Assembly (NCBI RefSeq): GCF_014204985.1
Contig: NZ_JACHMP010000001.1
Location: 3,782,001 to 3,846,000, forward strand
DNA from: Streptosporangium becharense
GTDB taxonomy: Bacteria > Actinomycetota > Actinomycetes > Streptosporangiales > Streptosporangiaceae
Direction: 5' to 3'
DNA length: 64,000 nt
Shown: positions 25,998-57,908 of the stretch, in pieces
Position numbering within the stretch: position 1 is the first letter of the stretch
How the letters are laid out: every line of letters starts with the position of its first letter
The notes under the pieces: generated by a model
Told to the model about the DNA's origin: nothing
Seen by the model: only the letters and a program-made list of their open reading frames with translations
Databases searched by the model: none
Position numbers and translations under genes: made by a program

Positions 25998-26005
25998 GGA
26001 GGACG

Positions 26006-26218
26006 ATGGCGCGCTCCTCACTCACGGCGGATCTGGCGGGCGCGGCCGGTACGGCGCTGCGCTGGCTGGCCACGGTGCTGCCTGGCCTGGCCGGTCTGGC
26101 GCTGATGGCTTACGGCGCGTGGCTGGCCTGGCCGCCGGCCGGATGGATGACGGCTGGCGGGCTGCTGCTGGTCGACCGGGCGTGGGAGCAGATCCGCACC
26201 GATCGGAGCGAGCCGTGA
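26006..26218 (+). CDS. Small membrane protein between terminase and portal
   Basis: The 70-residue protein has a strong hydrophobic hairpin at about 15-55. GAGGAGGACG precedes the ATG, and the stop overlaps the portal's GTG. Small membrane proteins at this position occur in actinophages; the role is unknown. Confidence 0.65.
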   Translation: MARSSLTADLAGAAGTALRWLATVLPGLAGLALMAYGAWLAWPPAGWMTAGGLLLVDRAWEQIRTDRSEP

Positions 26219-28104: not shown

Positions 28105-28229
28105 TCCCGCCTGACCCCTGACGCGCCGGAGCCACGCCGGAGCGTCCTGCGGCATGCCCGCAGGTCGCCACCACCTGGCCACCACCCGGACGGACGACGG
28201 CACGACCCATCTCACCGAAGGAGGGCTCC

Positions 28230-29615
28230 GTGCTGGAGTTCCTGCGCCAGCAGCTCGCGAAGCTGCTGGAGGAGAGGGCCGCGCTGAAGACCGAGCTGGA
28301 CGCCGTCCTGACGGCTCCCCGGGCTGAGCAGCGCGACCTCAACGACGAAGAGGCCGCCGCGTTCGAGCAGAAGCGCGACGCGATCAAGGCCAAGGACGAC
28401 GAGATCGAGCAGCGCCGCGAGCGCATCGCCGAGCTGGAGGAGGACGAGCGTCGCGAGGCCCGCGCCGCCGAACTGACCGCCCAGTACGGCCAGACCGGCG
28501 AAGCCCGGGAGCGCGCCTCCGGCGTGCAGGTCACCGCCGAGCCGGAGACCTACCGCCGCGGCGGCACGGCCTCCTACTTCCGGGACCTGGTGCGCGCCCA
28601 GCTCCACGGCTCCCGCGACGCGATCGAGCGGCTGGCCCGCAACGACCGCGAGGTGAAGGCCGAGCTGGAGAAGAGGGCGCTCAGCACCACCGATGGCGCT
28701 GGCGGCGAGTTCGTCCCACCGGCATGGATGATGGACGAGTGGGTGGGCCTGGCCCGCGCCTCGCGGGTGGTGGCCAACCGGCTGCGGTCGATGCCCCTGC
28801 CGGCGGGTACCGACTCCATCAACCTGCCGCGCCTGGCGACCGGTACGGCGGTCGCCGAGCAGGCGACGCAGAACACCGCGATCCAGAACACCGACGCCAC
28901 GACCAACGCCGTGACAGCCGCGGTGGCCACGATCGCCGGTCAGCAGGTCGTCTCGCTCCAGCTCATCGAGCAGAGCCCGATCAACATGGACGATGTCCTC
29001 CTGGCGGACCTGGCCGCGGACTACGCCATCAAGGCCGACGTCTTCGTTCTCACGAACAACGCCGCCGGGAAGCGCGGCCTGCTCAACGTGTCCGGCGCCA
29101 ACGCCGTCACCTACACGGACGCGAGCCCCACGGCGGGCGAGCTGTACGCCAAGGTCGCCGACGCGATCCAGCAGATCCACACCGGCCGGTTCATGCCGCC
29201 GGATGTGATCTTCATGCACCCGCGCCGCTGGGCCATGTTGCTGAGCGCGCTGGACTCCGCGGGCCGGCCGCTGGTGACTCCGGCAGCCAATGCGCCGCAG
29301 AACGTGATCGCCGCCGTCGGCACGATCAACTCGGAGGGGTTCGTCGGGTCGATGCAGGGTCTGCCCGTCTTCGTGGACCCGAACATCCCGATCAACCTCG
29401 GTGCCGCGACCAACGAGGACCGGATCATCGTCGCGCGCAGTTCCGACGTGATCCTGTTCGAGGGCACCCCGCGCAGCGAGACCTTCCGGGAGACGAAGGC
29501 TGCCGAGCTGTCCGTGCTGCTGCGCTTCTACAACTACGTGGCGCTGCACAGCGAACGCTACGCGAAGTCGATCAGCGTGATCAGCGGTACGGGTTTGGTT
29601 ACCCCGACGTTCTAG
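28230..29615 (+). CDS. HK97-fold major capsid protein
   Basis: The 461-residue protein has an N-terminal ~100-residue coiled-coil delta/scaffold domain, then 'GGTASYFRDLVRAQ' and the capsid core with 'GGEFVPPAWMMDEW', 'FMHPRRWAMLLSALD' and 'LPVFVDPNIPINLG'. The start GTG 28230 has AAGGAGGG upstream. The maturation protease upstream should remove the scaffold domain. Confidence 0.95.
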   Translation: MLEFLRQQLAKLLEERAALKTELDAVLTAPRAEQRDLNDEEAAAFEQKRDAIKAKDDEIEQRRERIAELEEDERREARAAELTAQYGQTGEARERASGVQVTAEPETYRRGGTASYFRDLVRAQLHGSRDAIERLARNDREVKAELEKRALSTTDGAGGEFVPPAWMMDEWVGLARASRVVANRLRSMPLPAGTDSINLPRLATGTAVAEQATQNTAIQNTDATTNAVTAAVATIAGQQVVSLQLIEQSPINMDDVLLADLAADYAIKADVFVLTNNAAGKRGLLNVSGANAVTYTDASPTAGELYAKVADAIQQIHTGRFMPPDVIFMHPRRWAMLLSALDSAGRPLVTPAANAPQNVIAAVGTINSEGFVGSMQGLPVFVDPNIPINLGAATNEDRIIVARSSDVILFEGTPRSETFRETKAAELSVLLRFYNYVALHSERYAKSISVISGTGLVTPTF

Positions 29616-29691
29616 TAGGCCACCGGACCGGGCGGGGCCGCGTGCTCCGCTCGGCCGATCCCGCACATCCATCTGTTTGGAGGCATCACTC

Positions 29692-30114
29692 ATGGCTGAG
29701 ATCGACGGCGTGCAGCCGACCCCGGAGAAGGCCGAGGAGCAGCAGGCCGACAGCTCGTGGCCGAAGCCGGGCGAGGAGGGCTACGTCCACCCCGACGGCA
29801 CCCCGCAGAGCGTGCAGCAGCTCGAAGACAACCGCAGGGCGGCGGCCGACCGGGCGGCGGCGGGCAGCATCGTCCACGGTGCTCCGCTGGCGACCCCGGG
29901 GCCGGACGTGCAGGCCGAGCGGGACAAGGCCGTCGAGCGGGCGGAGACCTACGACGGCACGACCACCGAGCAGGCCGAGGAGCACCTGACCGAGTGGATC
30001 GAAGAGAAGACCGAGGAGAAGGCCGACGAGGCGGCCGAGGGCGACGGTGAGCAGACCAAGCCCGCAGCTCGCCGGACCCGGGCCACCAAGCCCGCGGACG
30101 CCAAGAAGGAGTAG
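29692..30114 (+). CDS. Acidic head-associated hypothetical protein
   Basis: The 140-residue, very acidic protein has a basic C-terminal tail (last 25 residues Lys/Arg/Thr-rich). ATG 29692 has GGAGG 8 bases upstream. Its position after the capsid gene suggests a head decoration or assembly helper. Confidence 0.7.
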   Translation: MAEIDGVQPTPEKAEEQQADSSWPKPGEEGYVHPDGTPQSVQQLEDNRRAAADRAAAGSIVHGAPLATPGPDVQAERDKAVERAETYDGTTTEQAEEHLTEWIEEKTEEKADEAAEGDGEQTKPAARRTRATKPADAKKE

Positions 30115-30117
30115 GGC

Positions 30118-30405
30118 ATGCCGGAGCAGGTGCCGGTCCGCTCGGTGCGGACCGGCGGCACCGACTACATCGAGGTGCCCACGCCCGAGGAGGCCCAGGT
30201 CGCGGCCCTGCGCCGGGAGCACGCCGGCTACCTGGCGCGCGGCCTGGGCGACCGGGCCGAGCAGGTGGCCGCCGAGCTGCGGCGCCTGGGCGCGGACATC
30301 GAGGAGGGGCAGGAGCAGCGGGAGACTCCGCGCGCTCCGGAGCCGGAGAACGCAGCCGAGTCCCGGCCGCTCCAGCGCGCCGCCCGGCGCGGTCGCCGCG
30401 AGTAG
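30118..30405 (+). CDS. Small head-region hypothetical protein
   Basis: The 95-residue protein has helical residues 28-65 and Arg-rich end. It sits between the capsid partner and connector. No family is recognised. Confidence 0.6.
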   Translation: MPEQVPVRSVRTGGTDYIEVPTPEEAQVAALRREHAGYLARGLGDRAEQVAAELRRLGADIEEGQEQRETPRAPEPENAAESRPLQRAARRGRRE

Positions 30406-30408
30406 GCG

Positions 30409-31200
30409 ATGACGTACGCCTTCGGGGCGCCGGTCCGGCTGACCACGGAGATCCGCTCCGGCGGCCAGCTCGTCACCCCGGCCTCGGTCGAGCTGACGAT
30501 CCGGCTGCCGGACGGCACGACCGCCGGTCCGCTGACCCCGCCCGCGGACGGTGTGGGGCTCTACCACTACGACTACGTCTCATCTCAGGCCGGGCGGCAC
30601 ATCGCCCGGTGGACCACCACCGGCCCGGCGGGTGCGACCGAGGAACCGTTCGACGTCGCGCCGATGTGGGATGCCGGGATCGTCTCCCTGGCCGAGGCGA
30701 AGAAGCACCTGAACATCACCACTTCGGCCGACGACGGAGAGCTGGCCGAGGTGATTCGCGCGGTGACGCCCGTCATCGAACGTCACGCCGGGGCGGTGAC
30801 CCGCCAGACCTACACCGAGGACCACCCGGACGGCTACGGTCTCGTGCTCCAGCACACCCCGGTGCTGGCCGTCACCGCGATCACAGGGGCGCGACCGGGC
30901 GTGCTGGACCAAGCGGTGGACGAGCTGGCCGACGCCCGCGCGACCGGCGTGGTCCGGCGCCTCGACGGCAGGTGGATCTCCGGGCCGGTGCGGGTGACCT
31001 ATACCGCGGGCCGTACGTCGGTGTCGGCGAACGTCCGCCTGGCCGCGCTCATCATCATCGCTCACCTGTGGGAGACCCAGCGCGGAACCGTGGCCCCGCG
31101 GCTCGGCAGTGATGACGAGGTATGGGATCCGCGGGCGGGGTTCGCCGTGCCACGCCGGGCGCTGGAGCTGCTGGGCGAGCAGGTGCCTGGCATCGCATGA
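30409..31200 (+). CDS. Head-tail connector (gp6-like), with N-terminal Ig-like domain
   Basis: The 263-residue protein has residues 1-85 looking like a beta-sandwich ('VRLTTEIRSGGQLVTPASVE'). From ~95 the pattern 'LAEAKKHLNITTSADDGEL' and 'VTPVIERHAGAVTRQTY' matches gp6-like connector helices. It joins portal to neck. Confidence 0.8.
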   Translation: MTYAFGAPVRLTTEIRSGGQLVTPASVELTIRLPDGTTAGPLTPPADGVGLYHYDYVSSQAGRHIARWTTTGPAGATEEPFDVAPMWDAGIVSLAEAKKHLNITTSADDGELAEVIRAVTPVIERHAGAVTRQTYTEDHPDGYGLVLQHTPVLAVTAITGARPGVLDQAVDELADARATGVVRRLDGRWISGPVRVTYTAGRTSVSANVRLAALIIIAHLWETQRGTVAPRLGSDDEVWDPRAGFAVPRRALELLGEQVPGIA

Positions 31201-31223
31201 GGCCAGGCCCGTGAGGGATTTCG

Positions 31224-31269
31224 AGGTCAGGCTGAACCTGACCGGCCAGAGGTCAGGTTCAACCTGACC
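31224..31269. repeat. Two copies of a 19-bp GGTCAGG..CCTGACC palindrome
   Basis: Copy one, 31225-31243, has one mismatch; copy two, 31251-31269, has perfect 9-base arms around C. They are 26 bp apart, between the connector and tail-completion genes. They could be operators, or RNA hairpins. Confidence 0.75.
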
Positions 31270-31295
31270 CCGGAACGAGTGGGGGAATCCGCGCT

Positions 31296-31745
31296 ATGCC
31301 GCAGAGCGTGAGCACCATCCCGGCCGTCCTGGACGCCTTGGTGGCCGCGGCCCGCCGGGTACTGCCCGGTGTGCAGGTGGTCGACGGCCAGCCGCTGGCG
31401 GCCGAGCAGGAGATCGTCTGCGTCGGCTTCACCGGGGAGCCCGGCGAGACGTCCGTGGAGAACATCCGCACCCGCGAACAGGTGACGCTGGACCCTGACC
31501 GCGAGTCCTACGAGATCACCTGCCTGGCCGCCGTACTGCGCGGCGAGACCGACGCCGCCGCCGTACGGGCGCGGGTCTACGAGATGGTCAGCGCTCTGGC
31601 CAGCGAGCTGGCCACCGACCCGACCCTCGGCGGGGTGTGCGGGCGAACGCAGCTCACCACCGAGGACCTGGCCCAAGAGCAGACGAAGCAAGGCGCCCAG
31701 GCCATCGTCCGGTTCGTGATCAGCGTGGACGCCTGGACGTACTGA
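31296..31745 (+). CDS. Head-tail completion / tail terminator-like protein
   Basis: The 149-residue protein has alternating helix and strand, with 'YEITCLAAVLRGETD'. By position (connector, this, gp10-like) it is a head-closure or tail-terminator protein; the sequence alone is weak. Confidence 0.6.
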   Translation: MPQSVSTIPAVLDALVAAARRVLPGVQVVDGQPLAAEQEIVCVGFTGEPGETSVENIRTREQVTLDPDRESYEITCLAAVLRGETDAAAVRARVYEMVSALASELATDPTLGGVCGRTQLTTEDLAQEQTKQGAQAIVRFVISVDAWTY

Positions 31746-32182
31746 TGGCGAAGCAGCAGCCGACCGGCGCCGACGATCTGCGCGGGCTGATCCGTGATCT
31801 GGGCAAGCTGCCTGACGCGGTGCGCAAGGAACTGCGGCCCGCGCTGCGCCGGGCCGGCACCCGGGCGCGTACCCGGGCGCAGGGCAACGCCTCCTGGTCA
31901 CGGCGCATCCCGCGGGCGATCCGGCTCCAGGTCTCATTCGCCAAGCGACGGCCCGGCGTGGCCCTGTCGGTCAACAAGAACCTGGCGCCGCACGCAAGGC
32001 CGCTGGAGAACCTCGGCAAGCCCGGCAGCTTCCGTCACCCGATGTTCGGCGACCGCAAGCGCTGGGTGACGCAGCGTGCCCGCCCCTTCTTCTTCCCCGC
32101 CGCCGCGGCCGAGTGGCAGCAGATCGACCGCGACGTGGCCGCCGCCGTGGATGCCGCCGCCCGGCGGCACGGCTTCCGATGA
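31745..32182 (+). CDS. HK97 gp10-like tail component
   Basis: The 145-residue basic protein has 'KELRPALRRAGTRARTRA' and 'RPFFFPAAAAEWQQ', typical of HK97 gp10-like tail proteins. Its start overlaps the preceding stop. Confidence 0.75.
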   Translation: MAKQQPTGADDLRGLIRDLGKLPDAVRKELRPALRRAGTRARTRAQGNASWSRRIPRAIRLQVSFAKRRPGVALSVNKNLAPHARPLENLGKPGSFRHPMFGDRKRWVTQRARPFFFPAAAAEWQQIDRDVAAAVDAAARRHGFR

Positions 32183-32194
32183 GAGGACGACCCT

Positions 32195-32692
32195 ATGCCC
32201 CTTGACTCGCGGCTGCTGGTCCAGCTCGCCGCCAACCTGACCAACTCGCTGGACCTAACCACGGTGTCGGCGCCACTGTCGTTCGCCCGGCAGCTCAACC
32301 TCACCGACGGCGCCGGGGCGGGCCAGGCGAACCGGCTCTGGTCCGACACCCGCACCGTCGGGCCGTCGGCGACCGACAGCATCGACTTGGCCGGCAGCCT
32401 GACCGACCCGTTCGGGGCCGCCCTGACCTTCGCCCGGATCAAGGCGGTGCTGGTGGCCGCCGCGCTGGCGAACGTCACAGAGGTGCGCGTCACCCGGCCC
32501 GCCAGCAACGCCGTGCCGTTGTTGAGTGCCGCCGCCTATCTACCGGTCAAGCCCGGCGGCGTCTTCCTGTGGTTCGACCCGAGCGCGGCTGGCGTGCCGG
32601 TGACGGCCGGTACGGGCGACCTGCTCGACATGGTCAACAGCGGCGCGACGGCGGCCACCTATGACGTGGTCATCATCGGCGCGGCGTCGTAG
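32195..32692 (+). CDS. Virion-region hypothetical protein (beta-rich)
   Basis: The 165-residue protein is rich in Ala, Thr and Val and looks like one beta-sandwich ('LSFARQLNLTDGAGAG', 'SIDLAGSLTDPFG'). Similar proteins lie in actinophage tail modules; it may be a tail decoration protein. Confidence 0.65.
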   Translation: MPLDSRLLVQLAANLTNSLDLTTVSAPLSFARQLNLTDGAGAGQANRLWSDTRTVGPSATDSIDLAGSLTDPFGAALTFARIKAVLVAAALANVTEVRVTRPASNAVPLLSAAAYLPVKPGGVFLWFDPSAAGVPVTAGTGDLLDMVNSGATAATYDVVIIGAAS

Positions 32693-32701
32693 GAGGCGGG
32701 C

Positions 32702-32983
32702 ATGGCAGAGCTGGAGATGATCCGCATCCGCAACCCGCGGATTGACGGCGGCGGCCGGGTGATCGAGGTCCCTGCCTCGGCGCTGAGCCACTACCAGCGT
32801 TCCGGCTGGGAGTCGGCCGTCGAGTCCGTTGAAGAGCCGCCGACTGCGGCCTCGGCCGATCCGCCGCCCGACGGCCAGGCCGCACCCGAGCAGGACACCG
32901 AAGCCCCGGAGACCCCGGGGCTTTCGCACGCCACCACCGAGTCGCCGCGGCGTCGGCGCGCAAGCACGAAGGAGGGCGAGTAG
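32702..32983 (+). CDS. Small virion-region protein
   Basis: The 93-residue protein has an N-terminal 60-residue folded-looking part ('EMIRIRNPRIDGGGRVIEVP', then 'LSHYQRSGW') and a Pro/Glu tail with a basic end. It could be a short head-fibre or chaperone. It ends one base before the tail tube gene. Confidence 0.6.
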   Translation: MAELEMIRIRNPRIDGGGRVIEVPASALSHYQRSGWESAVESVEEPPTAASADPPPDGQAAPEQDTEAPETPGLSHATTESPRRRRASTKEGE

Positions 32984-33466
32984 ATGGCCGCCACGCCGAT
33001 CGCGAAGGTCACCCGGTACTGGCCGAAGGGCAAGCTCAAGTGGTACTGGGTGCCCACCATCGCCAACATCAACGCGCCCACTCGGGCGGAGTTGAACGCC
33101 GGGGTCGATCTGTCCGGTGAGGTCGCCGGCTATGACGGCTGGACCACCAGCTCCAACTTCGAGAACGCGCCCGACGTCAACAGCCGCTTCGTCTCCAAGG
33201 TGGCGGCCGACATCGAGGCCGAGGACTCCAGTCTGACGATGTACGCCGATCCGTCCGGCAGCGACGCCCGCACGCTCATGCCGCGCGGCAGCACGGGCAA
33301 CATCGTGCGCTTCGGCGGTGGTGACATCCCGGGCCGGAAGATGGATGTCTTCCCGGTCGAGGTCGGCGCGGTCAGCAAGCCCTTCGAAATGGACGCCGTG
33401 CCGGTGATCCAGTTCCAGTTCGCCATCACATCCGAACCCGCCGAAGACGTCACTGTCCCCGCTTAA
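32984..33466 (+). CDS. Major tail (tube) protein
   Basis: The 160-residue protein has beta-rich features: 'RAELNAGVDLSGEVAGYDGW', 'TTSSNFENAPDV', 'FEMDAVPVIQFQFAI'. Its place before the G/GT pair and tape measure supports tail tube. Confidence 0.85.
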   Translation: MAATPIAKVTRYWPKGKLKWYWVPTIANINAPTRAELNAGVDLSGEVAGYDGWTTSSNFENAPDVNSRFVSKVAADIEAEDSSLTMYADPSGSDARTLMPRGSTGNIVRFGGGDIPGRKMDVFPVEVGAVSKPFEMDAVPVIQFQFAITSEPAEDVTVPA

Positions 33467-33550
33467 GTGCGCGAGCTGCTGCGGCTCGTCTGGGCCGATC
33501 TGCGGCGTCTAGCCGCTCACCTGGAATCCGCGAGAGAGGACTACATCGAC

Positions 33551-33946
33551 ATGCTGCTCGGCCGTGAACAGATTCTTGCCGCCGACGACTTGCCCGTGGA
33601 GGACGTGCCCGTCCCTGAGTGGGGCGGGGAGGTCCGTCTGCGGGGCCTGACTGGTGCCGAGCTGGACGAGTACCAGGCGTCCCTGGTGGTGCAGACCTCC
33701 AACGGTCAGCAGAAGACGAACCTTCGCAATGCCACGGCCAAACTCGTCTCCCGGTGCGCCGTCAACGAGGACGGCAGCCCGCTGTTCGAGCCGAAGGACC
33801 TGCTCAAGCTCAGCAGCAAGAGCGCCGTCGCCCTCCAGCGCCTGGCCAACGTCGCCCAGCGTCTCAACGGCCTGACCGACGACGACCTCAAGGAGCTGAC
33901 CGAGGATTTCGACGACGGCCCGAGCGCCTCGCCCACCACCGACTAG
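33551..33946 (+). CDS. Tail assembly chaperone (G-like)
   Basis: The 131-residue protein has 'LGREQILAADDLPVEDVPVP' then 'EWGGEVRLRGLTGAE', a pattern of siphophage G proteins. ATG 33551 with GAGAGAGG upstream is preferred; the frame extends to GTG 33467 just after the tail tube stop. A -1 frameshift gives the GT extension. Confidence 0.8.
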   Translation: MLLGREQILAADDLPVEDVPVPEWGGEVRLRGLTGAELDEYQASLVVQTSNGQQKTNLRNATAKLVSRCAVNEDGSPLFEPKDLLKLSSKSAVALQRLANVAQRLNGLTDDDLKELTEDFDDGPSASPTTD

Positions 33947-34215
33947 CGCTCGCCCTCGGCTGCACCGTCGCCGAACTGCTCGCGCGGATCAGCGCACGTG
34001 AGCTGGCGGCCTGGCAGGTGTTCGAGCGGCTGACCGGCCCGATCGACCTGCGCGAGCGGATCGACGCCGCCGCCGCGCTGATCGCCGAGCGCATCACCAA
34101 CTGCCTCACCGAGACCAAGGGCGAGCCGCCCGAGGCCGCCGACTTCATGCCGCGCTGGGACACACAGCGGATCGAGTGGGAGCAAGGGGGAGGCGACGAT
34201 GGCGACGATTCGTAA
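33904..34215 (+). CDS. T-part of the tail chaperone GT fusion (-1 frame)
   Basis: The open -1 frame (33619-34215) past the G stop encodes 'LALALGCTVAELLARISARE' and 'LAAWQVFERLTGPIDLRERI', a normal GT extension, with no start codon of its own. I give 33904 as an approximate fusion point at a weak G-GAT-TTC slippery site; no canonical heptamer is seen. It overlaps the tape measure start. Confidence 0.7.
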   Translation, partial: GFRRRPERLAHHRLALALGCTVAELLARISARELAAWQVFERLTGPIDLRERIDAAAALIAERITNCLTETKGEPPEAADFMPRWDTQRIEWEQGGGDDGDDS

Positions 34216-37114
34216 CCTCCTCATCCGGCTCGGGGTCGACTTTTCCGAGCGCGGCATCAAGAAGGCCGAACGGGCGGTCGCACGGTTCGAGAAGCGGCTC
34301 GTCGGGGTGAGCGGCCTGGCGGCCAAGGGCGCCGGCCTGGCGTCCCTGGCCGGCGCGGCGACCTCCCTCGGCGTCGCCCTGGCCCCGGCGACGGCCGCCG
34401 TGGTGGCCCTGCCCGCAGCGCTGGCCGCTGTCAAGGTCGCCACCGGGGTGGCCAAGGTCGGCTTGGTCGGCATGGGTGACGCTATGAGCGCCGTGGCCGA
34501 GGGGGATGCCAAGAAGCTGGCCGAGGCGATGAAGAAGTTGTCGCCGAACGCCCGCGCCTTCGTCAAGGAGACGGGTGGCCTGAAGAAGGCGTTCGACCCC
34601 GTCCAGCAGGCCGTACAGAACAGGTTGTTCGAGGGACTGGCCGCACCCATGGGCAAGGTCGGCCGCGGTCTGCTGCCGACCGTGCGCAAGGGCATGCTCG
34701 GCGTATCCGGCGCCCTGAACGGCATGGCCAAGGAAGCCCTGAAGACAGCCAAGTCACCGATGTTCAAGAAGGACCTCGGCAAGGTCTTCACAGGCACCAC
34801 CGGCATCGTCAAGACGCTGACCGGCGCGGTCGGCCCGCTGCTGACGATCGTGTTGAAGCTCGCCACCGCAGGAATGCCACTGGTCAAGCGGATGGCCGAG
34901 TGGGCGGTCAGCGGCGCCAAGGCCGGGGCGGCGTTCCTGAAGTCCAAGGAGGGCGCGGCCCAGATGGCGGGCTGGGCCACGAAAGCTGGCAACACCCTCG
35001 CTCAGCTCGGCCGCATCGGTAAGAACCTCGCTGGGTTCCTCGGCGGGATATTCAAGAGCGCCAAGGGCTCCGGTGACGGCGTCCTGACCACCATCGAGCA
35101 GATCACCGCCCGTATGGCGGCCTTCTCCCAGTCAGTCGGCGGCCAGGCCCGGATGACCGAGGCGTTCCGGCTGCTGCTGGAGATCCTGCGTGCGGTGGTC
35201 GGAGTGCTGCCCATCTTCCTCGGGCCGCTGGGTGCCGTCCTGAAGATCATGACCGCGTTGCCGGGCCCGGTGCGCGGCGTGGCCGTGCAGCTCCTCGCCT
35301 TCTCCGTCGTCGCCGTGGCCTTGGGCGGCAAGCTCAGCTTCCTGTTCAAGACGATCACGACCGTGTCCACGGGTGCCATCGCGGCTGGTGGCGCGATGGT
35401 CAAGTTCGGATCCGGCTTGATTCGGGGCGGGGCGGCGCTGGGGGAGAACGCCTCGGCCGCCGCCCGCGCCGGCGCCGCGGTGCGCTCCTTTGGCGGCGCC
35501 GTCTCCCGGGGCGTCATGACCAGCGCGAGCATGGTGACCAACCTGTCGGCGCTGGCGTGGGAGAAGGGCAAGGTCGCCGCCCAGGCCGCCATCGCCACCA
35601 CGCGCACGGTGGCCATGACCGTGGCGCAGAAGGCAGCGGCCGTCGCCTCCCGCGCTCTGGCGATGGCGACCCGGCTGGTCAACGCGGCGATGCGCGCCAA
35701 CCCGATCGGGATCGTCATCACGCTGCTGACCGCCATCGGCGCGGCCCTGGTGCTGGCCTACAAGAAGAGCAGCACGTTCCGGGCGATCGTCGATGGTGCG
35801 CTGCGCGCGGTCGCCGCAGCCGGGCGGTGGATGTGGAACACCGTGCTGCAACCGATCTTCTCGACGTTGGCGCGGGTCATCACCGTGACCGTGCCGAACG
35901 CCTTCAAGGCCGGGGTCGCAGCGATCGGCAGGTTCTGGGGCAAGATCCAAGAGGTCGCGCGCAAGCCGGTCGCGTTCGTGGTCAACACCGTGTACAACCA
36001 GGGAATCCGCCGGGTGTGGAACTGGGTGGCCTCCAAGGTCGGCCTCGGTCAGCTCGACGAGATCAAGGGCTTCGCGGCTGGCGGCATCCTGCCCGGTTAC
36101 TCCAGCCGCGACGACCGGCTCATCATGGCCCGCAGCGGTGAGGGCATCTTGGTGCCGGAGTTCGTCCGTGCGCTGGGGGCCGATTTCATCCACCGGGGCA
36201 ACGCCGCCGCCCGGCGCGGCGGGCCGAAGGCGGTGGCCAAGGAACTCGGCATCGCCGGTGACCCGGGCGGGCTCGGCATCCCGGGGTTCGAGCGGGGCGG
36301 CATCGTCGGTGCGATCGGCGGGTTCTTCGCCAAGGCGAAGAACTGGTTCGTCGAGGGATTCATGAACGCCGCCCGCGCCGCCCTCAACCCGTTGATCACC
36401 GGTACGGCCAGTGCGGTCGGCGGGACCGGCATCGGGCAGTTGATGACCGGCGTGGTCCGGTCGCTGGTGGGTGGCGCCCTGAAGGCGTTTGTGCCGGTCC
36501 AAGGGCAGATCGGCGGGCCGGGCCGGCGCGCGGTCGCGGCGGCGCGCTCGCAGATCGGCGTGCCGTACTCGTGGGGCGGCGGCGGTCCAGGCGGACCCGG
36601 CTACGGGTTCGCGCAGGGCGCCGGGATCCGCGGCTTCGACTGCTCGTCGCTGATGCAGTACGCCTGGCACAAGGCGACGGGCCGGGTCATCCCGCGGACG
36701 ACGTACGCGCAGATCCCGTGGGTGAAGCGCGTGCCCAAGCCGGTGCCGGGCGCGCTCGGGTTCCCGCACTCGGGGCACGTGTTCATGGCCACTGAACGCG
36801 GCACGATCGTGGAGGCGCCGTACACCGGCGCCCGGGTGCGTGAGACCGGGATGCGGTCGGCGTGGTGGGGCATGCCTCCGTGGCAGTTCGACGACGGCGG
36901 CGTACTGCCGCCCGGGATGACACCGGTCTACAACGGCACCCGGCGCCCGGAGTACGTCTTCACCCAGCGGCAGATGCGTGCCATCGGCGGCAACCATTAC
37001 ACGATCAACGTGCGGGTGGCCGCGACCGCCAACCGTGCCGAGATCGGCCGGGAGATCGTCGCCGCCATCAAGGAGTTCGAGCGCGGCAGCGGTGCCTCGT
37101 GGAGGAAGCCGTGA
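34199..37114 (+). CDS. Tape measure protein with NlpC/P60 peptidase
   Basis: The 971-residue protein sets tail length. Residues 1-120 have 'IRLGVDFSERGIKKAERAVA' and a hydrophobic Ala-rich part, with several membrane-like stretches up to ~560. The C-terminal ~780-890 is an NlpC/P60 hydrolase: 'SQIGVPYSWGGGGPGGPG', catalytic Cys in 'GFDCSSLMQYA' (~814) and His in 'SGHVFMA' (~859), for local cell-wall cutting. GGGGGAGG precedes ATG 34199. Confidence 0.93.
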   Translation: MATIRNLLIRLGVDFSERGIKKAERAVARFEKRLVGVSGLAAKGAGLASLAGAATSLGVALAPATAAVVALPAALAAVKVATGVAKVGLVGMGDAMSAVAEGDAKKLAEAMKKLSPNARAFVKETGGLKKAFDPVQQAVQNRLFEGLAAPMGKVGRGLLPTVRKGMLGVSGALNGMAKEALKTAKSPMFKKDLGKVFTGTTGIVKTLTGAVGPLLTIVLKLATAGMPLVKRMAEWAVSGAKAGAAFLKSKEGAAQMAGWATKAGNTLAQLGRIGKNLAGFLGGIFKSAKGSGDGVLTTIEQITARMAAFSQSVGGQARMTEAFRLLLEILRAVVGVLPIFLGPLGAVLKIMTALPGPVRGVAVQLLAFSVVAVALGGKLSFLFKTITTVSTGAIAAGGAMVKFGSGLIRGGAALGENASAAARAGAAVRSFGGAVSRGVMTSASMVTNLSALAWEKGKVAAQAAIATTRTVAMTVAQKAAAVASRALAMATRLVNAAMRANPIGIVITLLTAIGAALVLAYKKSSTFRAIVDGALRAVAAAGRWMWNTVLQPIFSTLARVITVTVPNAFKAGVAAIGRFWGKIQEVARKPVAFVVNTVYNQGIRRVWNWVASKVGLGQLDEIKGFAAGGILPGYSSRDDRLIMARSGEGILVPEFVRALGADFIHRGNAAARRGGPKAVAKELGIAGDPGGLGIPGFERGGIVGAIGGFFAKAKNWFVEGFMNAARAALNPLITGTASAVGGTGIGQLMTGVVRSLVGGALKAFVPVQGQIGGPGRRAVAAARSQIGVPYSWGGGGPGGPGYGFAQGAGIRGFDCSSLMQYAWHKATGRVIPRTTYAQIPWVKRVPKPVPGALGFPHSGHVFMATERGTIVEAPYTGARVRETGMRSAWWGMPPWQFDDGGVLPPGMTPVYNGTRRPEYVFTQRQMRAIGGNHYTINVRVAATANRAEIGREIVAAIKEFERGSGASWRKP

Positions 37115-38397
37115 CCTACGCCTTCCCCAAGGTCGTCGTCGAGGCCGGGTTCACTGTCACCGACCCGCCGGGCACGCTGCTGCACCTGGACGACGCCGTG
37201 CTCGGCCTGCTCGATACCGGCACCCTGGCCGGTGACGAGAACTGGGAGGACCTGTCGGACGCCGGGTGGACCCGCGAGGTGACCATCACCCGCGGCTCCA
37301 ACCGGGTCGAGTCCCCGCTGATCAAGTACGAGGCTGGCACCGCCACGATCGAGCTGGACAACCGTGACCGCCGCTTCGACCCCACCCACCTCGGCGGCCC
37401 GTACGTCGCGGCCGGGCGCACGCAGCTCATGCCGATGCGACCGATCCGGATCCGCGCCACCTGGGCCGGGGTCACCTACGACCTGTACCGGGGGTACGCC
37501 GACGACTGGCAACCCTCCTGGGACCACCCGACCATGAGCGTCACGACGGTGCCGTGCTTCGACGCCTTCGAGGCCCTGGCCAACAACAGCCGCGCGGCCG
37601 TGGCCGCGGTCGGCGCCGGGGAGACGACCGGCCAGCGCATTCACCGCATCCTCGACTCGGCGGGCTGGTCGCCGATCCACCGGCTCATCAGCATGGGCGA
37701 CTCCACCGTGCAGGCCACCACCCTGGAAGGTGAGGCCCTGGCCGAACTTCAGCGCGTCGCCGACTCCGAGCTGGGCGAGCTGTACGTGGACGGTGCCGGC
37801 CGGGTGGTCTTCCGCAACCGGCGGGCGCTACTGACCGACAGTCGGAGCAACACCAGTCAGGCGACGTTCGGTGACGACCGGGCCGCCGGGGAGCTGCCGT
37901 ACCAGGATCCGCAGGCGGGCAACGACAAGACCCAGCTCTACAACCTAGTCAGGATCGGCCGGGCGGGCGGCACGGTCCAGGTGACCGAGGACACCTCCAG
38001 CCGCGAGGAGTTCTTCACCCGCACGTTCGAGCGAGACGACCTGCTGCTGGAGACCGACGCCGAGGCCCGCGACTACGCCGCCTGGATCCTGCACATCTCC
38101 CGCGAGCCGGAGCTGCGGTTCGCGCAGATCACGATCAACCCGATGCGAAATCCGACCGAGCTGTTCCCCCAGGTACTCGGCAGAGAGATCGGCGACCGCA
38201 TCACGGTGATCCGGCGCCCGCCCGGCGGCGGCGATCCGGTGGTACGCGACTGCTTCATCCGCGGCATCGTCCACGAGATCAAACAGGCGCGCTGGCGGAC
38301 CACGTGGACGCTCCAGAGCGCGACCAAGGTCAGCAGCTTCGTGACGCTCGACCATCCATCTCTCGGCCAGCTCGACGCCAACGCTCTTGCCTACTGA
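37111..38397 (+). CDS. Minor tail protein (distal tail/hub-like)
   Basis: The 428-residue protein starts at a GTG overlapping the tape measure stop. 'WTREVTITRGSNRVESPLIK' and 'TATIELDNRDRRFDP' match the N-terminal half of siphophage tail hub/distal proteins of actinophages. It would join the tail tip to fibres. Confidence 0.8.
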   Translation: MTYAFPKVVVEAGFTVTDPPGTLLHLDDAVLGLLDTGTLAGDENWEDLSDAGWTREVTITRGSNRVESPLIKYEAGTATIELDNRDRRFDPTHLGGPYVAAGRTQLMPMRPIRIRATWAGVTYDLYRGYADDWQPSWDHPTMSVTTVPCFDAFEALANNSRAAVAAVGAGETTGQRIHRILDSAGWSPIHRLISMGDSTVQATTLEGEALAELQRVADSELGELYVDGAGRVVFRNRRALLTDSRSNTSQATFGDDRAAGELPYQDPQAGNDKTQLYNLVRIGRAGGTVQVTEDTSSREEFFTRTFERDDLLLETDAEARDYAAWILHISREPELRFAQITINPMRNPTELFPQVLGREIGDRITVIRRPPGGGDPVVRDCFIRGIVHEIKQARWRTTWTLQSATKVSSFVTLDHPSLGQLDANALAY

Positions 38398-38406
38398 CCC
38401 GGAAGG

Positions 38407-38928
38407 ATGACCGTGGCCTTCAAGGACTGGGTGCCCGGCGCGGTGCTCACCGCTGCCGACCTCGACCGGTACATGATGCAGCAGGACTGGGTGGTCAAGA
38501 CCTCCGACCAGTCGGTCACTAACTCCGCCACCCCGGTCCTCGACTCCGAACTGATGCTGACCGTCGAGGCCAACAGCCGATACTGGGTGGACGCCTTCCT
38601 GATCGCCGACGGCGCCACCGGAGGTGACCTCCAGCTCGGCTGGACCGGTCCGGCTGGCTGCGCCTTCGACTGGGTCTCCGACGGGTTGGCGGTCGCGGCC
38701 ACGACCGGTGTCGACGCGGTCAGCCGTACCGCCCAAGGTCTGACGAACCTTCCCAGCATCGGCATGATCGGAGTCGGCAGCAACATCGCGATCCCGCTGC
38801 GCGGCGTGCTGACCACCGCGGGCTCCGGCGGCGTGCTGCGCGTGCGCTGGGCACAGGCCACGGCCAACGCCACGGCGACCCGGATGAGGGCCGGGTCGCT
38901 ACTGCGCATCACCAAGCTGGTCCCGTAG
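38407..38928 (+). CDS. Tail-tip / fibre-like structural protein
   Basis: The 173-residue beta-rich protein has 'FKDWVPGAVLTAADLDRYMM', a start often seen in actinophage minor tail proteins. AAGGATG gives a close ribosome site. The host-binding role is inferred from position. Confidence 0.7.
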   Translation: MTVAFKDWVPGAVLTAADLDRYMMQQDWVVKTSDQSVTNSATPVLDSELMLTVEANSRYWVDAFLIADGATGGDLQLGWTGPAGCAFDWVSDGLAVAATTGVDAVSRTAQGLTNLPSIGMIGVGSNIAIPLRGVLTTAGSGGVLRVRWAQATANATATRMRAGSLLRITKLVP

Positions 38929-38996
38929 CGCTGATCCGGCGGGTTAGCCAAGGTGCCCGCATTCCATGGCGGGTCGACCTTCAACTGGAGGGCGTG

Positions 38997-39425
38997 ATGA
39001 CTCTCGACTGGCGCAACCAGATGCGGCACAACCCATTCGGCACGACGGCCGCCGGCGCCGCAGTCGTCCTCGGCGGTCTGGGCCTGGTCCTCGGTGCCGA
39101 CGTCTCCCAGGGCATGACCAACAGCCTGCGCGGCAGCGCTGACATCGTCGCGCACCTGTGGGGTGGCGCGTTCGCCGCCGGCGGCGTCTTGAAGCTGGTC
39201 GGCCTGTACCGGCATCGGTCGGAGGTCGAGATCCCCGGGCTGTGGATGCTCACCGGCGGCTACGCCTTCTACTCGATCACCGTGACCGTCGGCCTAGGCG
39301 TGCATGGCCTGGCCGCCGGCACCATCTCCGCGGCGCTGACGATCGGCTGCCTGCTCAAAGCGAGGAACATCATGCGCAGCGCCCGGATGGCCGCCCGCCT
39401 GCGCCCGCGCCCGGATGGCTCGTGA
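38997..39425 (+). CDS. Membrane protein, holin candidate
   Basis: The 142-residue protein has about four hydrophobic helices (20-38, 52-75, 82-100, 105-125). It lies before the second membrane gene and endolysin, so a holin role is plausible. GGAGGG precedes ATG 38997; GTG 38994 is an alternative. Confidence 0.6.
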   Translation: MTLDWRNQMRHNPFGTTAAGAAVVLGGLGLVLGADVSQGMTNSLRGSADIVAHLWGGAFAAGGVLKLVGLYRHRSEVEIPGLWMLTGGYAFYSITVTVGLGVHGLAAGTISAALTIGCLLKARNIMRSARMAARLRPRPDGS

Positions 39426-39745
39426 ACTGGACCGCCGTACTGGTGGCGATCGCGCAGGTCGCCGTAGGGGGCGGCATCGTGCAGGCCGTTATCGCCTTCA
39501 CCCGGCGACGCGCTGAGTTGCGGCAGCTCGACCGCCAATCCGACAGCGTCGCGGTCGAAGCGGCCAGCAGCGTCGTCGGCATGCTCCGCACCGAGCTGGA
39601 CGCGACCAAGGCCGAGAACAAGGAACTGCGCTCGGCTGTCGCCGACCAACAGCGGCAGATCCAGGCGCTCGCCGAGCAGGTGTCCACGCTACGCGCGGAC
39701 CTGGCCGTCGCCAAAGCGGAGATCGTCCGCCTGCAAGGCGGCTGA
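39422..39745 (+). CDS. Single-helix membrane protein with coiled coil
   Basis: The 107-residue protein has a membrane helix (5-27) then a heptad-like coiled coil (45-105: 'LRTELDATKAENKELRSAVA'). Similar proteins act in actinophage lysis modules. It starts at GTG 39422, overlapping the holin candidate. Confidence 0.65.
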   Translation: MNWTAVLVAIAQVAVGGGIVQAVIAFTRRRAELRQLDRQSDSVAVEAASSVVGMLRTELDATKAENKELRSAVADQQRQIQALAEQVSTLRADLAVAKAEIVRLQGG

Positions 39746-39760
39746 CCGAGGGAGGACCGC

Positions 39761-40228
39761 GTGCCTGATGTCGTGTGCTCGCTGAAGGTCGACGTCGCCC
39801 AGGCGGTGCCGCCGGGCCCGGACTACTACCTGGTGCGGTTCCCGTACGGCACCGAGTCCTACGACGCGCACGGTATGCACGCCACCGTGCAGCCGGACGA
39901 CGTCACCTCCGCCTACCCCGATCCGCGCTCGGGCCTGATCTGGCCGCAGCACGATGCGTGGGCGGATCTGTACGCGCTCCTGTACTGGGAGGACGGGGAC
40001 TACACGGAGCTGCGGGATCGGTTCGTCCGTGACCCGCTCGGCCTCGCCGACGTCCCGGATTCCACCTGCACCGAGGACCGGCCGGTCACGCCGGGCGGCC
40101 AGTTCATCGCGAAGTCCTGGGGGATGTTCGTCCACCCGGGCGTGCCGCTCGGTCTGATGGTCCGGCACAACTCTCTCAAGCCGGTGAAGCTCACCCTTGC
40201 TGAGTTCAAGCTGGCCTACCGCATCTGA
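39761..40228 (+). CDS. Hypothetical late protein
   Basis: The 155-residue protein has an aromatic-rich beta start ('DYYLVRFPYGTESYDAHGMH') and no membrane segments. It may be a capsid or tail decoration. It has AGGGAGG upstream. Confidence 0.6.
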   Translation: MPDVVCSLKVDVAQAVPPGPDYYLVRFPYGTESYDAHGMHATVQPDDVTSAYPDPRSGLIWPQHDAWADLYALLYWEDGDYTELRDRFVRDPLGLADVPDSTCTEDRPVTPGGQFIAKSWGMFVHPGVPLGLMVRHNSLKPVKLTLAEFKLAYRI

Positions 40229-40240
40229 GAGGAGGCTCTC

Positions 40241-41233
40241 ATGCCTATCGACCTCATCAGCCGTGCCGCGTGGGGTGCTCGCGCGCCGAGCGGCTCCTAC
40301 ACCGCGCTCGCCGCGACCCGAGGTGTGAAGGTCCACTACACCGGGGGCCACGTGGACCCGGCGACCCTGACCGACCACAACCGGTGCGTGGCTGCGGTGC
40401 GCGGCATCCAGAACGGTCACATGGACGGCAACGGCTGGATGGACATCGGCTACTCGGCCGTCGTCTGCGGGCACCGGAAGGTCTTCATCGGCCGCGGCCT
40501 GCACCGCGTCCCGGCCGCGAATGGCCCCGGCCTGAACGGCGGCCATTACGCCGTGCTCGGCCTGGTCGGCACCTCCGGCGTCGTCGCCCCGCCGGAGGCG
40601 ATGCTGCACGGCATCCGCGACGCCATCGAGTGGCTGCGTGACGAAGGCGATGCGGGGGCCGAGATCAAGGGTCACTGCGACGGCTACGCGACGAGCTGCC
40701 CCGGCGATGCGCTGTACGCCTGGGTCCGCGCCGGAGCGCCTCGCCCGTCCACGACCACCCCGCCCGCCGAACCACCCACAGAGGAGGAAGAAGTGCCCGA
40801 AGTCGTCTCGCTCGGCCTGAGCGCCGAGGCCACCGTCAAGCCGAACATCACCCATCAGCCCTGGTGGACCGGGGAGTACCGGGACACCGCGGGCTGGCAT
40901 CCGGCCGGCGGCCAGTCGATCGCGCCGGATACGGACGTGTGGGCCGACCTGGTGGCGTTCATCGCGCTGCGCGGCCTGGCACCTGGGGAGAAGGTCGAGG
41001 TCGGCTTCACCCGGCACGCGGCCGACGGCTCCCTGGTGGACTACGCCTGGCCGAACGGCCGACTCATGGCCGTCTACGCCGACGCCGACGGCCGAGCGGA
41101 GGCGAGTATCAACGGCCACTTCAAGCTGTCGGCGACCACCCGCGGCCGGGTGACCATCCGGCACGCCAGCGCGGGCACGGTCACGCTGGAGACCGCCTCC
41201 GCTTTCAAGGGCATCCTGCACCGCTACGCCTGA
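40241..41233 (+). CDS. Endolysin: N-acetylmuramoyl-L-alanine amidase (PGRP type)
   Basis: The 330-residue enzyme cuts peptide stems from glycan. The N-terminal ~170 residues are amidase/PGRP: 'ISRAAWGARAP', zinc His in 'VKVHYTGGH', 'IGYSAVVCGHRKVFIGRG', and 'IKGHCDGYATSCPGDALYAW'. After a Pro/Thr/Glu linker (170-190), a C-terminal ~130-residue domain is probably for cell-wall binding. AGAGGAGG precedes the ATG. Confidence 0.92.
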   Translation: MPIDLISRAAWGARAPSGSYTALAATRGVKVHYTGGHVDPATLTDHNRCVAAVRGIQNGHMDGNGWMDIGYSAVVCGHRKVFIGRGLHRVPAANGPGLNGGHYAVLGLVGTSGVVAPPEAMLHGIRDAIEWLRDEGDAGAEIKGHCDGYATSCPGDALYAWVRAGAPRPSTTTPPAEPPTEEEEVPEVVSLGLSAEATVKPNITHQPWWTGEYRDTAGWHPAGGQSIAPDTDVWADLVAFIALRGLAPGEKVEVGFTRHAADGSLVDYAWPNGRLMAVYADADGRAEASINGHFKLSATTRGRVTIRHASAGTVTLETASAFKGILHRYA

Positions 41234-41281
41234 CCGGATTTCCGCCCGGCTTGAGGGCGGCCTGCCTCTGAGGAGGGTTAC

Positions 41282-41473
41282 ATGATCAAAATAGGAAGCA
41301 TGGCCAAGGCCATCGTGGCTGCCGGCTCGGCCGGCCTGGGGGCACTGGTGACCGCCATGGACGACAACGTCATCGTGACCGGGGAGTGGGTCACGGTCGG
41401 CTTGTTCGTGCTTGGCGCCCTTGGCGTCACCTATGTCGTGCCGAACGCCGAGCGCTCAGACCCGCGCCGGTAG
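41282..41473 (+). CDS. Small holin-like membrane protein
   Basis: The 63-residue protein has two membrane helices (8-28 and 36-55) and a charged tail, as in class II holins of actinophages. It is the last late gene; GGAGGG lies upstream and a terminator follows. Confidence 0.7.
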   Translation: MIKIGSMAKAIVAAGSAGLGALVTAMDDNVIVTGEWVTVGLFVLGALGVTYVVPNAERSDPRR

Positions 41474-41535: not shown

Positions 41536-42246
41536 TCACCCCAGCCAGAAGGCAGCGAGTGACCACTTCTGGGCCCCACTTGTGGAGCCGTCGTGCGGCG
41601 CGAGTTCGGTCGGCGCGATGTATCCCTGGCCGGGCTCCAGGCGGATGCGCAGGCACCGTAAAGGGTGCCCGTCGGCGACGTATCGGCGCACGTCATCGGT
41701 GTGCGGGCAGTGCTGCTCCCGGTCACGGCCCAGGACGCGGCAGATTTCCATGACGTCCCGGTCACCGACCAGGAGGTAGCGGATCCCCGGGCCGAAGTTG
41801 ATGCACAGCCGTCGGCGGCTGTGCTGCCGGGCCGGATACGGCAGCCGGTCCCAGTTGTCCACGTGCAGTCCGATCCTTCTGCCGACCGCCGTGTCCTCGG
41901 TGGAGGTGAGCAGCCCGGCCGGGCTGCGCGTGTAGACGTGTCGTCTGCGTGGCCAGCGGCCGTTCAGCGGGTCGAGAGCGGCTGCGGCGTCCACACGGCC
42001 TTGCAGATCGTCGGAGGCGAAGACCGGCAGATCCTGGCTGACCAGTTCGAGTGTCATGCCGGGCGGCGTTTCGGCGTCGGGCCGGAGTCGTTCGGCCTCT
42101 TCCTCGCCGAGGGCTGTCCAGTTCTCCTGGGGGACGACGGCGGCGCCGTCGTCGTAGCCCGGCGTGTCGCCTGCCTGCCGGACGTCCCCGATGTCGATAC
42201 GCCCCTGGATGTCGTCGAACCGGTCGAACAGCAGCCGTACGCCCAT
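41536..42246 (-). CDS. Putative Fe(II)/2-oxoglutarate-type oxygenase of the RiPP cluster
   Basis: The 236-residue protein contains H128-x-D130 ('GLHVDNWDRLP') and a distal His218 ('APTELAPHDGST'), the H-x-D...H facial triad expected of non-heme Fe(II)/2OG oxygenases. 'RRRLCINFGPGIRYLLVG' would be a core strand pair. In known cyclophane-peptide clusters (recalled families named YhhA/B/C) an oxygenase of this kind hydroxylates the cyclised peptide. GGGAGG lies 8 bases before the ATG. It is last in the minus-strand operon. Confidence 0.6.
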   Translation of the reverse strand: MGVRLLFDRFDDIQGRIDIGDVRQAGDTPGYDDGAAVVPQENWTALGEEEAERLRPDAETPPGMTLELVSQDLPVFASDDLQGRVDAAAALDPLNGRWPRRRHVYTRSPAGLLTSTEDTAVGRRIGLHVDNWDRLPYPARQHSRRRLCINFGPGIRYLLVGDRDVMEICRVLGRDREQHCPHTDDVRRYVADGHPLRCLRIRLEPGQGYIAPTELAPHDGSTSGAQKWSLAAFWLG

Positions 42247-42277: not shown

Positions 42278-42940
42278 CTACTCGAAGGTGATCTCCAGCT
42301 CGGCCGCGAACGCCTCGGCGAGGCCCTGGAGCTGCGGCCGATCGACGATGACCTTCTTGAGCGCGCTCACTCCGCGAAGGCCGGACAGGTCGTTGCCGCG
42401 CAGGTCGCAGCCACGATAGGTGCCGCCGTCGAACTCGGTCAGGTGCAGGTCGCACTCGTCGAACGCCACGCCGCTCAGGTCGGCCGCGGAGAACCTCGCT
42501 TCACGCAGGGAGCAGGAGGAGAAGATGACCGGCCCGGTGGCGCGTACGCGAGTGAAGGCGGCGAGATCGAACTTGCACCGCTCGAAGACCACGTCATCGA
42601 ACGTGGTCTCCTCCCACACCGCGCCGAGCATCCGGCAGTCGGTGAAGACGACGCGGGAGAGCTTGCTGTCCGCCCAGCGGAGGCCGGACAGGTCGCAGCC
42701 GGAGAACTCGACCGAGTGCAGGCGCAGCTCGTCCAGGTGGGCACGCTGGGTGGTGAGGCCGGTGACGCGCCCGTCCATGAGCTGGGTCTCCGACAGGGAA
42801 AGCTCGCGCAGTCGGGCATCGGCGTATCTGAACTCGCGCAGCTTGCCGTGCTCGTCCTCCAGCGAATCGACCTCGTCCAGGTAGGCGTCGTCCAGGTCGG
42901 GCAGCGTGACGCTCGTCCGGCGTACGGTGCGTGTGTCCAT
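42278..42940 (-). CDS. Pentapeptide-repeat protein, possible self-immunity
   Basis: The 220-residue protein has an acidic N-terminal 45 residues then a right-handed beta-helix of A(D/N)LxX-like units ('FSGCDLSGLRWADSKLSRVV', 'FTDCRMLGAVWEETTFDDVV'). Members such as McbG and AlbG protect gyrase from peptide or other poisons made nearby; the immunity role is inferred from its place in the cluster. ATG 42955 is the longer alternative. Confidence 0.8.
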   Translation of the reverse strand: MDTRTVRRTSVTLPDLDDAYLDEVDSLEDEHGKLREFRYADARLRELSLSETQLMDGRVTGLTTQRAHLDELRLHSVEFSGCDLSGLRWADSKLSRVVFTDCRMLGAVWEETTFDDVVFERCKFDLAAFTRVRATGPVIFSSCSLREARFSAADLSGVAFDECDLHLTEFDGGTYRGCDLRGNDLSGLRGVSALKKVIVDRPQLQGLAEAFAAELEITFE

Positions 42941-43006
42941 CGTCCTGCTTTCCATAGAGGAGATACGTGGTCCGCCGTGGGCGCGAGGAGACCGCGCCCA
43001 CGGCGA

Positions 43007-43201
43007 TCATCTGCTACTTCTTCTTGCCCCAGTTGTCCCAGCTCGGCCTGTTGTCGAATCCCCCTTCTTCATGTTGTCCCAGCTCGGCTTGTTGTCGAAC
43101 TTGGCGGCTCGCATCGGAGTGGGGTTCTCAAGGGTGCTGGTACCGATCAGCTCGTCGACCACCTTCGCATCCGTGGTGGTCAGGTACTCCAGCATGGTCA
43201 T
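43007..43201 (-). CDS. RiPP precursor with tandem aromatic-Asp-Asn core, second repeat out of frame
   Basis: In the visible frame it is 64 residues: a leader (1-34) and core 'KFDNKPSWDNMKKG' (about 34-47), then a meaningless tail to 43007. In the +1-shifted frame the same DNA gives FDNRPSWDN-WGKKK ending at 43014. The two copies match over 27 bases (43073-43099 and 43032-43058) but are offset by 41, not 42, bases; a sixth C in the run at 43060-43064 would restore an in-frame 14-residue tandem. ATG 43201 overlaps the radical SAM stop, with AGGAG upstream. F-D-N and W-D-N are fit substrates for three-residue cyclophanes. Confidence 0.75.
   Translation of the reverse strand: MTMLEYLTTTDAKVVDELIGTSTLENPTPMRAAKFDNKPSWDNMKKGDSTTGRAGTTGARRSSR
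43032..43099 (-). repeat. Two 27-bp core repeats offset by 41 bp
   Basis: 43032-43058 and 43073-43099 differ at one base. Each codes for F-D-N-(K/R)-P-S-W-D-N. The 41-bp offset breaks the frame. Confidence 0.85.
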
Positions 43202-44334
43202 GCCGCGATCTCCTTTTTGGTTGTGGTGTACAGAGCGGTGATGAGGGCTTGACGGGTGAGCCGGCAGTAGTCGGTCTCCGTGGCCGTGAAGGTGCCGTGC
43301 TCGAAGTAGCGGTTGCCCGCCTGGGCGCCGCGGCAGAAGGCGAAGAACTCGCATTCGGCCTGGCAGCGAGACAGGCCGGTCATGAACTCGGCGACGTAGC
43401 GCAGCCGATGCGCCTGAGCCAACATGCTGGCGATGGTCTGATGGCGGACGTTCCCGGCGAGGAAGTCGCCGTAGGCGTCGTCGCTGATGCCCGCCAGCTC
43501 GGGTGACATCAGCACCACGTCCCCGTCGACCGACACTGTCGGAATCGGGTCGAGGCCGTGTCTGCACCACTCGTCGCGCTGCCCGCTGCGGGCGAGGTGC
43601 AGATAGTCGGTGACCCGTTCAAGCTCCCGCAGTGCGGGCCCTCCGCTATGGGTCCTGCGCCAGTCCAGGACCCGTTGCCAGAACCGCTCGGCCTGGTCCC
43701 GGGTGATCCCGCACTGTCGATCGTTGACGCCTTCCATCTCCTCCACGTTCAGGCCGACGGTGTGCGGCCCCAGGTCCGCGAGGAAGTCCAGGAGGGCTTC
43801 GGGCCACTCCATGCCCTCGGTCCCCACGACGGCGATCACGCTGAAGCGGATGCCGCGGTCACGCAGGCGGCGGATGCCGCGCACGATCCGGGCGAAGGCG
43901 GGCTGGCCGCGCAGATCAACCCGCCGGGCGTTCAGTGCCGCCGGGCCGTCGATGCTGACGCCGACACGGACCTGGTAGCGGGCGAGCAGATCGCACCACT
44001 CGTCGTCGATGAGGGTGGCGTTGGTCTGCACGCTGTGCTGAATCCGTCCCGCCTGACGCAGGCCCTCGAACGGCGCGAGCAGCGCGGTGAACTTGCTCCG
44101 GCCCAGGGCGAGAGGCTCCCCGCCGTGCCACACGATGTCCAGCGGGTTACCAGGATCGGCCAGCTCCGCCGCCGAGTCGGCGACGGCCTGGGCGACCTCG
44201 GGGGACATCTCGCTGCGGAGGCGCCGGTGCGGCAGATAGCAGTAGCGGCAGTCGAGGTTGCACAGCGTGGTCGGCTGGAGTACCAGGGTCCTGGCCCGGC
44301 CGAACCACCGATCGAACTCTGATCGCCCTTCCAT
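43198..44334 (-). CDS. Radical SAM/SPASM peptide maturase (cyclophane-forming type)
   Basis: The 378-residue enzyme has the SAM-cluster motif C25-N-L-D-C29-R-Y-C32, 'VWHGGEPLALG' and 'VGVSIDGP' (SAM binding). The C-terminal SPASM cysteines include C257, C324, C328, C334 and C357. Length and motifs fit the FxsB/GrrM/AmcB-like group that links an aromatic ring to the beta-carbon two residues on. Its stop overlaps the precursor ATG, a tight coupling. No RRE domain is obvious. Confidence 0.9.
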   Translation of the reverse strand: MEGRSEFDRWFGRARTLVLQPTTLCNLDCRYCYLPHRRLRSEMSPEVAQAVADSAAELADPGNPLDIVWHGGEPLALGRSKFTALLAPFEGLRQAGRIQHSVQTNATLIDDEWCDLLARYQVRVGVSIDGPAALNARRVDLRGQPAFARIVRGIRRLRDRGIRFSVIAVVGTEGMEWPEALLDFLADLGPHTVGLNVEEMEGVNDRQCGITRDQAERFWQRVLDWRRTHSGGPALRELERVTDYLHLARSGQRDEWCRHGLDPIPTVSVDGDVVLMSPELAGISDDAYGDFLAGNVRHQTIASMLAQAHRLRYVAEFMTGLSRCQAECEFFAFCRGAQAGNRYFEHGTFTATETDYCRLTRQALITALYTTTKKEIAA

Positions 44335-57828: not shown

Positions 57829-57901
57829 GCGGCCGTAGCTCAATGGATAGAGCATCTGACTACGGATCAGAAGGTTAGGGGTTCGAGTCCTCTCGGCCGC
57901 G
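57829..57901 (+). tRNA. tRNA-Arg(ACG)
   Basis: 73 bases with complete cloverleaf: acceptor GCGGCCG/CGGCCGC, D-arm AGCTCAATGGATAGAGC, anticodon stem-loop TCTGA-CTACGGA-TCAGA (ACG 57862-57864), T-arm with GGTTCGAGTCC, discriminator G. CCA is not encoded. Confidence 0.97.
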
Positions 57902-57908
57902 CAGATGT

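Follow-up and report, generated by a model that had tools for sequence, protein, structure and literature searches.

A probable recent frame loss in the AmcA-type precursor gene of Streptosporangium becharense and uneven gene loss across amc loci

Triceptides are described as products of three-residue cyclophane forming enzymes, including XncB, OscB and MscB (PMC11002830). The AmcA/AmcB pair, represented by the profiles NF041721 (AmcA) and NF041718 (AmcB), resembles these systems in that AmcB is a SPASM-type radical SAM protein and a relative of GrrM/OscB (279 bits, short of the 310-bit cut-off) and in that the AmcA core carries Trp/Phe-X-Asn motifs; a cyclophane in the amc product is a prediction. 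AmcA differs from triceptide precursors in its arrangement of two cores, each with an FDN and a WDN. No paper describing AmcA/AmcB, and nothing on amc frameshifts, was found in the open-access literature (triceptide queries gave reviews; subscription papers were outside the scope), and an activity for the amc family would be new. The second comparison is with the pentapeptide-repeat proteins. AlbG is encoded beside a peptide pathway, as is the pentapeptide gene of S. becharense, and pentapeptide proteins without any connection to gyrase are numerous. PDB titles link EfsQnr and AlbG to gyrase or topoisomerase, describing EfsQnr as a gyrase inhibitor and AlbG as an albicidin resistance factor. 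Speirobactin is described as the product of a peptide operon in which a pentapeptide protein serves as the resistance gene (PMC12406682).

In the window (the whole 64-kb stretch of S. becharense DNA that was analysed), an amc operon lies on the minus strand in the order amcB, amcA, a pentapeptide-repeat gene and a 236-aa ORF. The amcB gene (43198-44334) is intact and encodes a predicted cyclophane-forming radical SAM/SPASM maturase of 378 aa with the motif CNLDCRYC, which matches NF041718 over its full length at 523.4 bits (cut-off 425). Its stop overlaps the start of amcA (43007-43201 as it stands) by four bases (ATGA). The pentapeptide-repeat gene (42278-42955; 225 aa), for which a role in self-protection is proposed, is followed by the 236-aa ORF (41536-42246), the operon's last gene in the genus, which matched nothing in NCBIfam, Pfam or PHROGs and is 76-83% identical in all four close congeners, with w of 0.22-0.35. 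For amcB, w was 0.22-0.25 between S. becharense and congeners G301 or G303 and 0.27 between G301 and G303, and for the pentapeptide gene it was 0.31-0.53 within the genus. Judged by these values, the S. becharense amcB is under purifying selection. Long-standing decay of the cluster was considered and rejected, since w for both amcB and the pentapeptide gene falls in the range of the intact congeners. Genes for a phage terminase, portal, major head, tape measure and endolysin (PHROGs) occupy positions 24570-41473 of the plus strand and stop 62 bp short of the operon's end.

The visible amcA ORF encodes 64 aa, consisting of a leader, core 1 and an out-of-frame tail. Core 1 (FDNKPSWDN; 43073-43099, minus strand) is in the visible frame, and core 2 (FDNRPSWDN; 43032-43058, minus strand), followed by WGKKK, is in another. 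The core 27-mers are identical at 26 of 27 positions, each occurs once in the window (43099-43073 and 43058-43032), and they are offset by 41 bp rather than 42, as the earlier note had observed. The run of five that it pointed to (C5 on the plus strand, G5 on the minus strand; 43060-43064) is indeed present in the inter-core linker, at the site of frame loss. Restoring the frame brings in WGKKK and the TAG stop of the core 2 frame (43016-43014) as the note proposed; the two units of 14 residues that it described come to 14 and 15 residues by its own division of the linker.

The visible ORF scored 34.8 bits against NF041721, below the curated cut-off of 40. Searched against the genome, the profile matched with positions 2-38, covering the leader and core 1, in one frame (E 3.7e-7) and with positions 39-54, covering core 2, in the next (E 7.6e-6). 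S. becharense AmcA is thus like known members in its leader and core 1 and unlike them in being split across two frames with no ORF at the cut-off. The possibility that the genome carries another AmcA was rejected, as both matches are halves of one gene. A codon-usage frame model, trained on the S. becharense genome without homologues, switched frame at 43059, and the split profile match together with this homologue-free switch places the break beyond chance. With the comparison to relatives below, three independent lines point to a broken frame. The adjoining amcB and the orthology to intact members identify the gene as an AmcA-type cyclophane RiPP precursor with two core repeats, directly downstream of its AmcB maturase gene. 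The frameshift explains why an annotation of S. becharense would contain no AmcA over the curated cut-off.

Core spacing was compared across 65 loci, of which 7 were dropped as duplicates, 33 had two cores, 9 had one core and 16 had no recognisable core. The spacing was 39, 42, 48 or 51 bp, all divisible by three, at 32 of the 33 two-core loci, and only S. becharense had 41. The relatives thus did not yield what the earlier note had named as evidence against its reading, namely the same 41-bp offset with a conserved tail. In the four close congeners (G301, G303, G307 and G304), both cores are in one frame and another base stands inside the run of five. Intact congener AmcAs (G301, G303, G307 and G313) scored 68.9-70.5 bits, over the NF041721 cut-off. 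The frame loss is therefore confined to the S. becharense genome, and the interruption of the run in congeners implies that it was not inherited as a slippery sequence and was made by the lesion or by an adjacent change. In the operon tree, the S. becharense branch is ~0.10 substitutions per site, with G307 and G304 together as its sister. Core 2 has been preserved together with its stop, and it is two substitutions away from the G304 copy despite this branch length, from which the lesion appears young, with an age at most of the order of the S. becharense branch. Beside the frame loss, one codon of the linker (43059-43072) shares none of its three bases with the corresponding codon of any congener. 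A family search of 341 genomes identified AmcB relatives in 30 (E <= 1e-80) and AmcA in 35; one AmcA match (G150, 24.1 bits) was dropped as a chance match lacking an FDN/WDN core and amc genes, leaving 34 AmcA-bearing genomes. A scan of named genomes gave 22 loci, and a class-wide search of 394 genomes had matches in 9, none of them a second split AmcA.

AmcB is predicted to modify the Phe/Trp-X-Asn motifs of the cores in the manner of triceptide enzymes, and the two cores of an intact congener precursor would offer up to four such motifs. Translation in S. becharense would give the leader and core 1 followed by an unrelated tail of 17 residues, and core 2 with the conserved WxKKK end would no longer be made. 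AmcB may still act on core 1. The authentic product would be lost or would retain a single core. The maturase would remain, as would the proposed immunity protein.

Sequencing error, recent mutation and a slip site were the options that the earlier note had left standing. From the sequence comparisons, we regard it as probable that amcA has undergone a real, recent one-base frame loss in the inter-core linker, in the S. becharense lineage only, and of the three options a recent mutation is the best supported. The in-phase cores at 32 of 33 two-core loci and in the four close congeners argue for it, and real lesions are common at the amc locus, given that amcB is unreadable in 10 of 34 genomes and that small-indel frame losses occur in G307 and G078. 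The linker codon with three changed bases also counts for a mutation, because a one-base read error would not yield it. Unlikely, by comparison, is an error of sequencing or assembly in the homopolymer, with an intact two-core gene in the living strain. The position of the frame loss in a run of five, the preserved core 2 and stop, and the purifying selection on amcB would suit such an error; an intact AmcB and a nearly unchanged core 2 are equally expected from a read error, and the absence of a broken amcA from all 23 other genomes with a readable amcB makes the S. becharense genotype unusual. Elsewhere in the window, a tyrosine integrase gene (57963-59173, minus strand) is also split between two frames, by a one-base loss near 58991, and errors could be clustering here; this lesion, however, does not fall in a homopolymer. 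The integrase gene adjoins a tRNA-Arg gene (57829-57902). The run is absent from congeners, so an error would have had to strike a sequence that was different from theirs beforehand. As a proxy for assembly error, the frame model was applied to 20 stretches of 20 kb each from S. becharense and from congener G311; it called 5 frame switches in 346 kb of coding sequence in S. becharense, at least 3 of which resemble gene starts by eye, versus 3 in 350 kb in G311. The model detected 85 of 117 random single-base deletions. Indels are thus not abundant in the 400 kb sampled from the S. becharense assembly, a point in favour of a real mutation that falls short of proof.

Two further readings both appear highly improbable. 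In one, ribosome or polymerase slippage at a lineage-specific site gives one-core and two-core products from the same gene. The run coincides exactly with the point where the frame changes, slipping back by one base on the Gly codon would bring the two frames together again, and core 2 has been retained. However, none of the 32 other two-core loci shares the offset, the four close congeners lack an uninterrupted run of five, and three other linkers (L034, L035 and L052) contain five-base runs and are all in frame. Three stretches, from around the run and from downstream of it, were folded as RNA, and none was more stable than shuffled sequences (z +1.09, +0.92 and +1.16), and no stimulating structure was found downstream. 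A conserved slip site at the amcA linker is not supported. The other reading is an adaptive shift to a one-core precursor like the one-core AmcAs of another genus, for which the nine one-core loci provide a precedent. Eight of these nine ORFs end in WDNW plus 2-4 residues and so keep the terminal core (the ninth, L025, is divergent), whereas the visible S. becharense product keeps the first core and carries a foreign tail; we give this shift just as little credence. The frameshift itself amounts to a single broken member of a known family; the pattern of gene loss around it matters more.

Across the 34 AmcA-bearing family genomes, amcB could not be read through in 10; the search started from AmcA, and loci that retain AmcB but have lost AmcA could be under-counted. 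A deletion of ~0.59 kb joins amcB to amcA in G304, and the frame of amcB is lost near codon 16 in G307, where an unusual start might still allow AmcB to be made, and in the last ~38 codons in G078. Internal or end deletions of amcB occur in G293, G225, G064, G120 and G095 (the last assembly is only 84% complete), and amcB was not found in G118 and G247 of these genomes. AmcB is reduced to its first 124 residues in Streptosporangium carneum (L045). The amcA gene is damaged in S. becharense, G064, G118 and G225. At the G064 locus (L069, ~4100-4190), the AmcA cores are in phase, the frame is lost right after core 2 and the amcB beside it is truncated.

The pentapeptide gene, by comparison, is open in 32 of the 34 genomes; the exceptions are G225, in which it has lost its frame near the start, and G255, which had no pentapeptide match. 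With G255 left out, broken amcB in 10 of 34 versus a broken pentapeptide gene in 1 of 33 gave a Fisher P of 0.006, and adjustment for gene length gave a one-sided P of 0.044, or 0.077 with shorter pentapeptide proteins; statistical support for preferential keeping of the pentapeptide gene is therefore modest. Full-length pentapeptide genes, 45-79% identical, were also found as orphans in seven genomes (G312, G310, G309, G044, G206, G008 and G193), and the 12-15 kb of surrounding sequence that was analysed contained no AmcA or AmcB match (E <= 0.01). In the six of the seven that were compared, w was 0.25-0.53, as in operons, and in the tree the orphans of G312, G310 and G309 nest with the cluster-bearing G303 (supports 1.00, 0.81 and 0.91). 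G210 has an intact cluster and a second amc remnant in which every gene is degraded, including the pentapeptide gene. The remnant (L144, G210:C59:192000-206000, ~6700-7500) holds pieces of an AmcA core, the pentapeptide gene and the 236-aa ORF. Decay that extends to the pentapeptide gene fits with protection already being supplied by the intact cluster, in this one case. At amc loci, production genes would seem to have been broken again and again and the pentapeptide gene to have lasted, a pattern that one would expect if a lineage can do without production, or pays for it, and neither holds for protection. We think it most likely that the amc family has undergone recurrent loss of production with immunity kept.

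The pentapeptide protein belongs to the pentapeptide-repeat fold on the basis of a PF13599 match (78 bits), a structural model (mean pLDDT 90.6, pTM 0.89) and Foldseek, whose nearest structures were EfsQnr (2w7z, TM 0.72-0.78), a Clostridium botulinum pentapeptide protein (6fls), AlbG and MfpA, with lower TM values of 0.40-0.62 for AlbG and MfpA. Its best sequence-profile matches among solved structures were AlbG (2xt4), EfsQnr and MfpA. The protein thus shares the right-handed repeat fold with these three and is unlike them in falling below the curated NCBIfam cut-offs for Qnr (41 of 240 bits) and MfpA (37 of 360 bits). By analogy, it may provide gyrase-linked self-protection to the maker of the amc peptide, and if it outlasts the peptide, this hints at the peptide's target (DNA gyrase or a relative). 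A broader hypothesis is that the amc peptide acts on a DNA topoisomerase, that the linked pentapeptide protein protects against it, and that AmcB and AmcA are lost repeatedly while protection is kept and finally becomes an orphan; we put this forward tentatively, as a possibility that is more doubtful than not. If true, the target of an entire uncharacterised cyclophane peptide family would have been predicted from gene-loss patterns alone.

Other precursor arrangements were observed among the loci. In Streptomyces sp. CBMA156 (L039), an AmcA-like precursor just after position 6119 has the first two repeats followed by an extended core with five W-x-N-like motifs. Loci from Micromonospora and Actinoplanes (L040 and L044) encode AmcB relatives that are 46-47% identical. 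In both, a short ORF of another kind follows just after 6035; the two ORFs have the end CAWNHFENIPTFYNWNNRPR in common and perhaps represent another precursor type.
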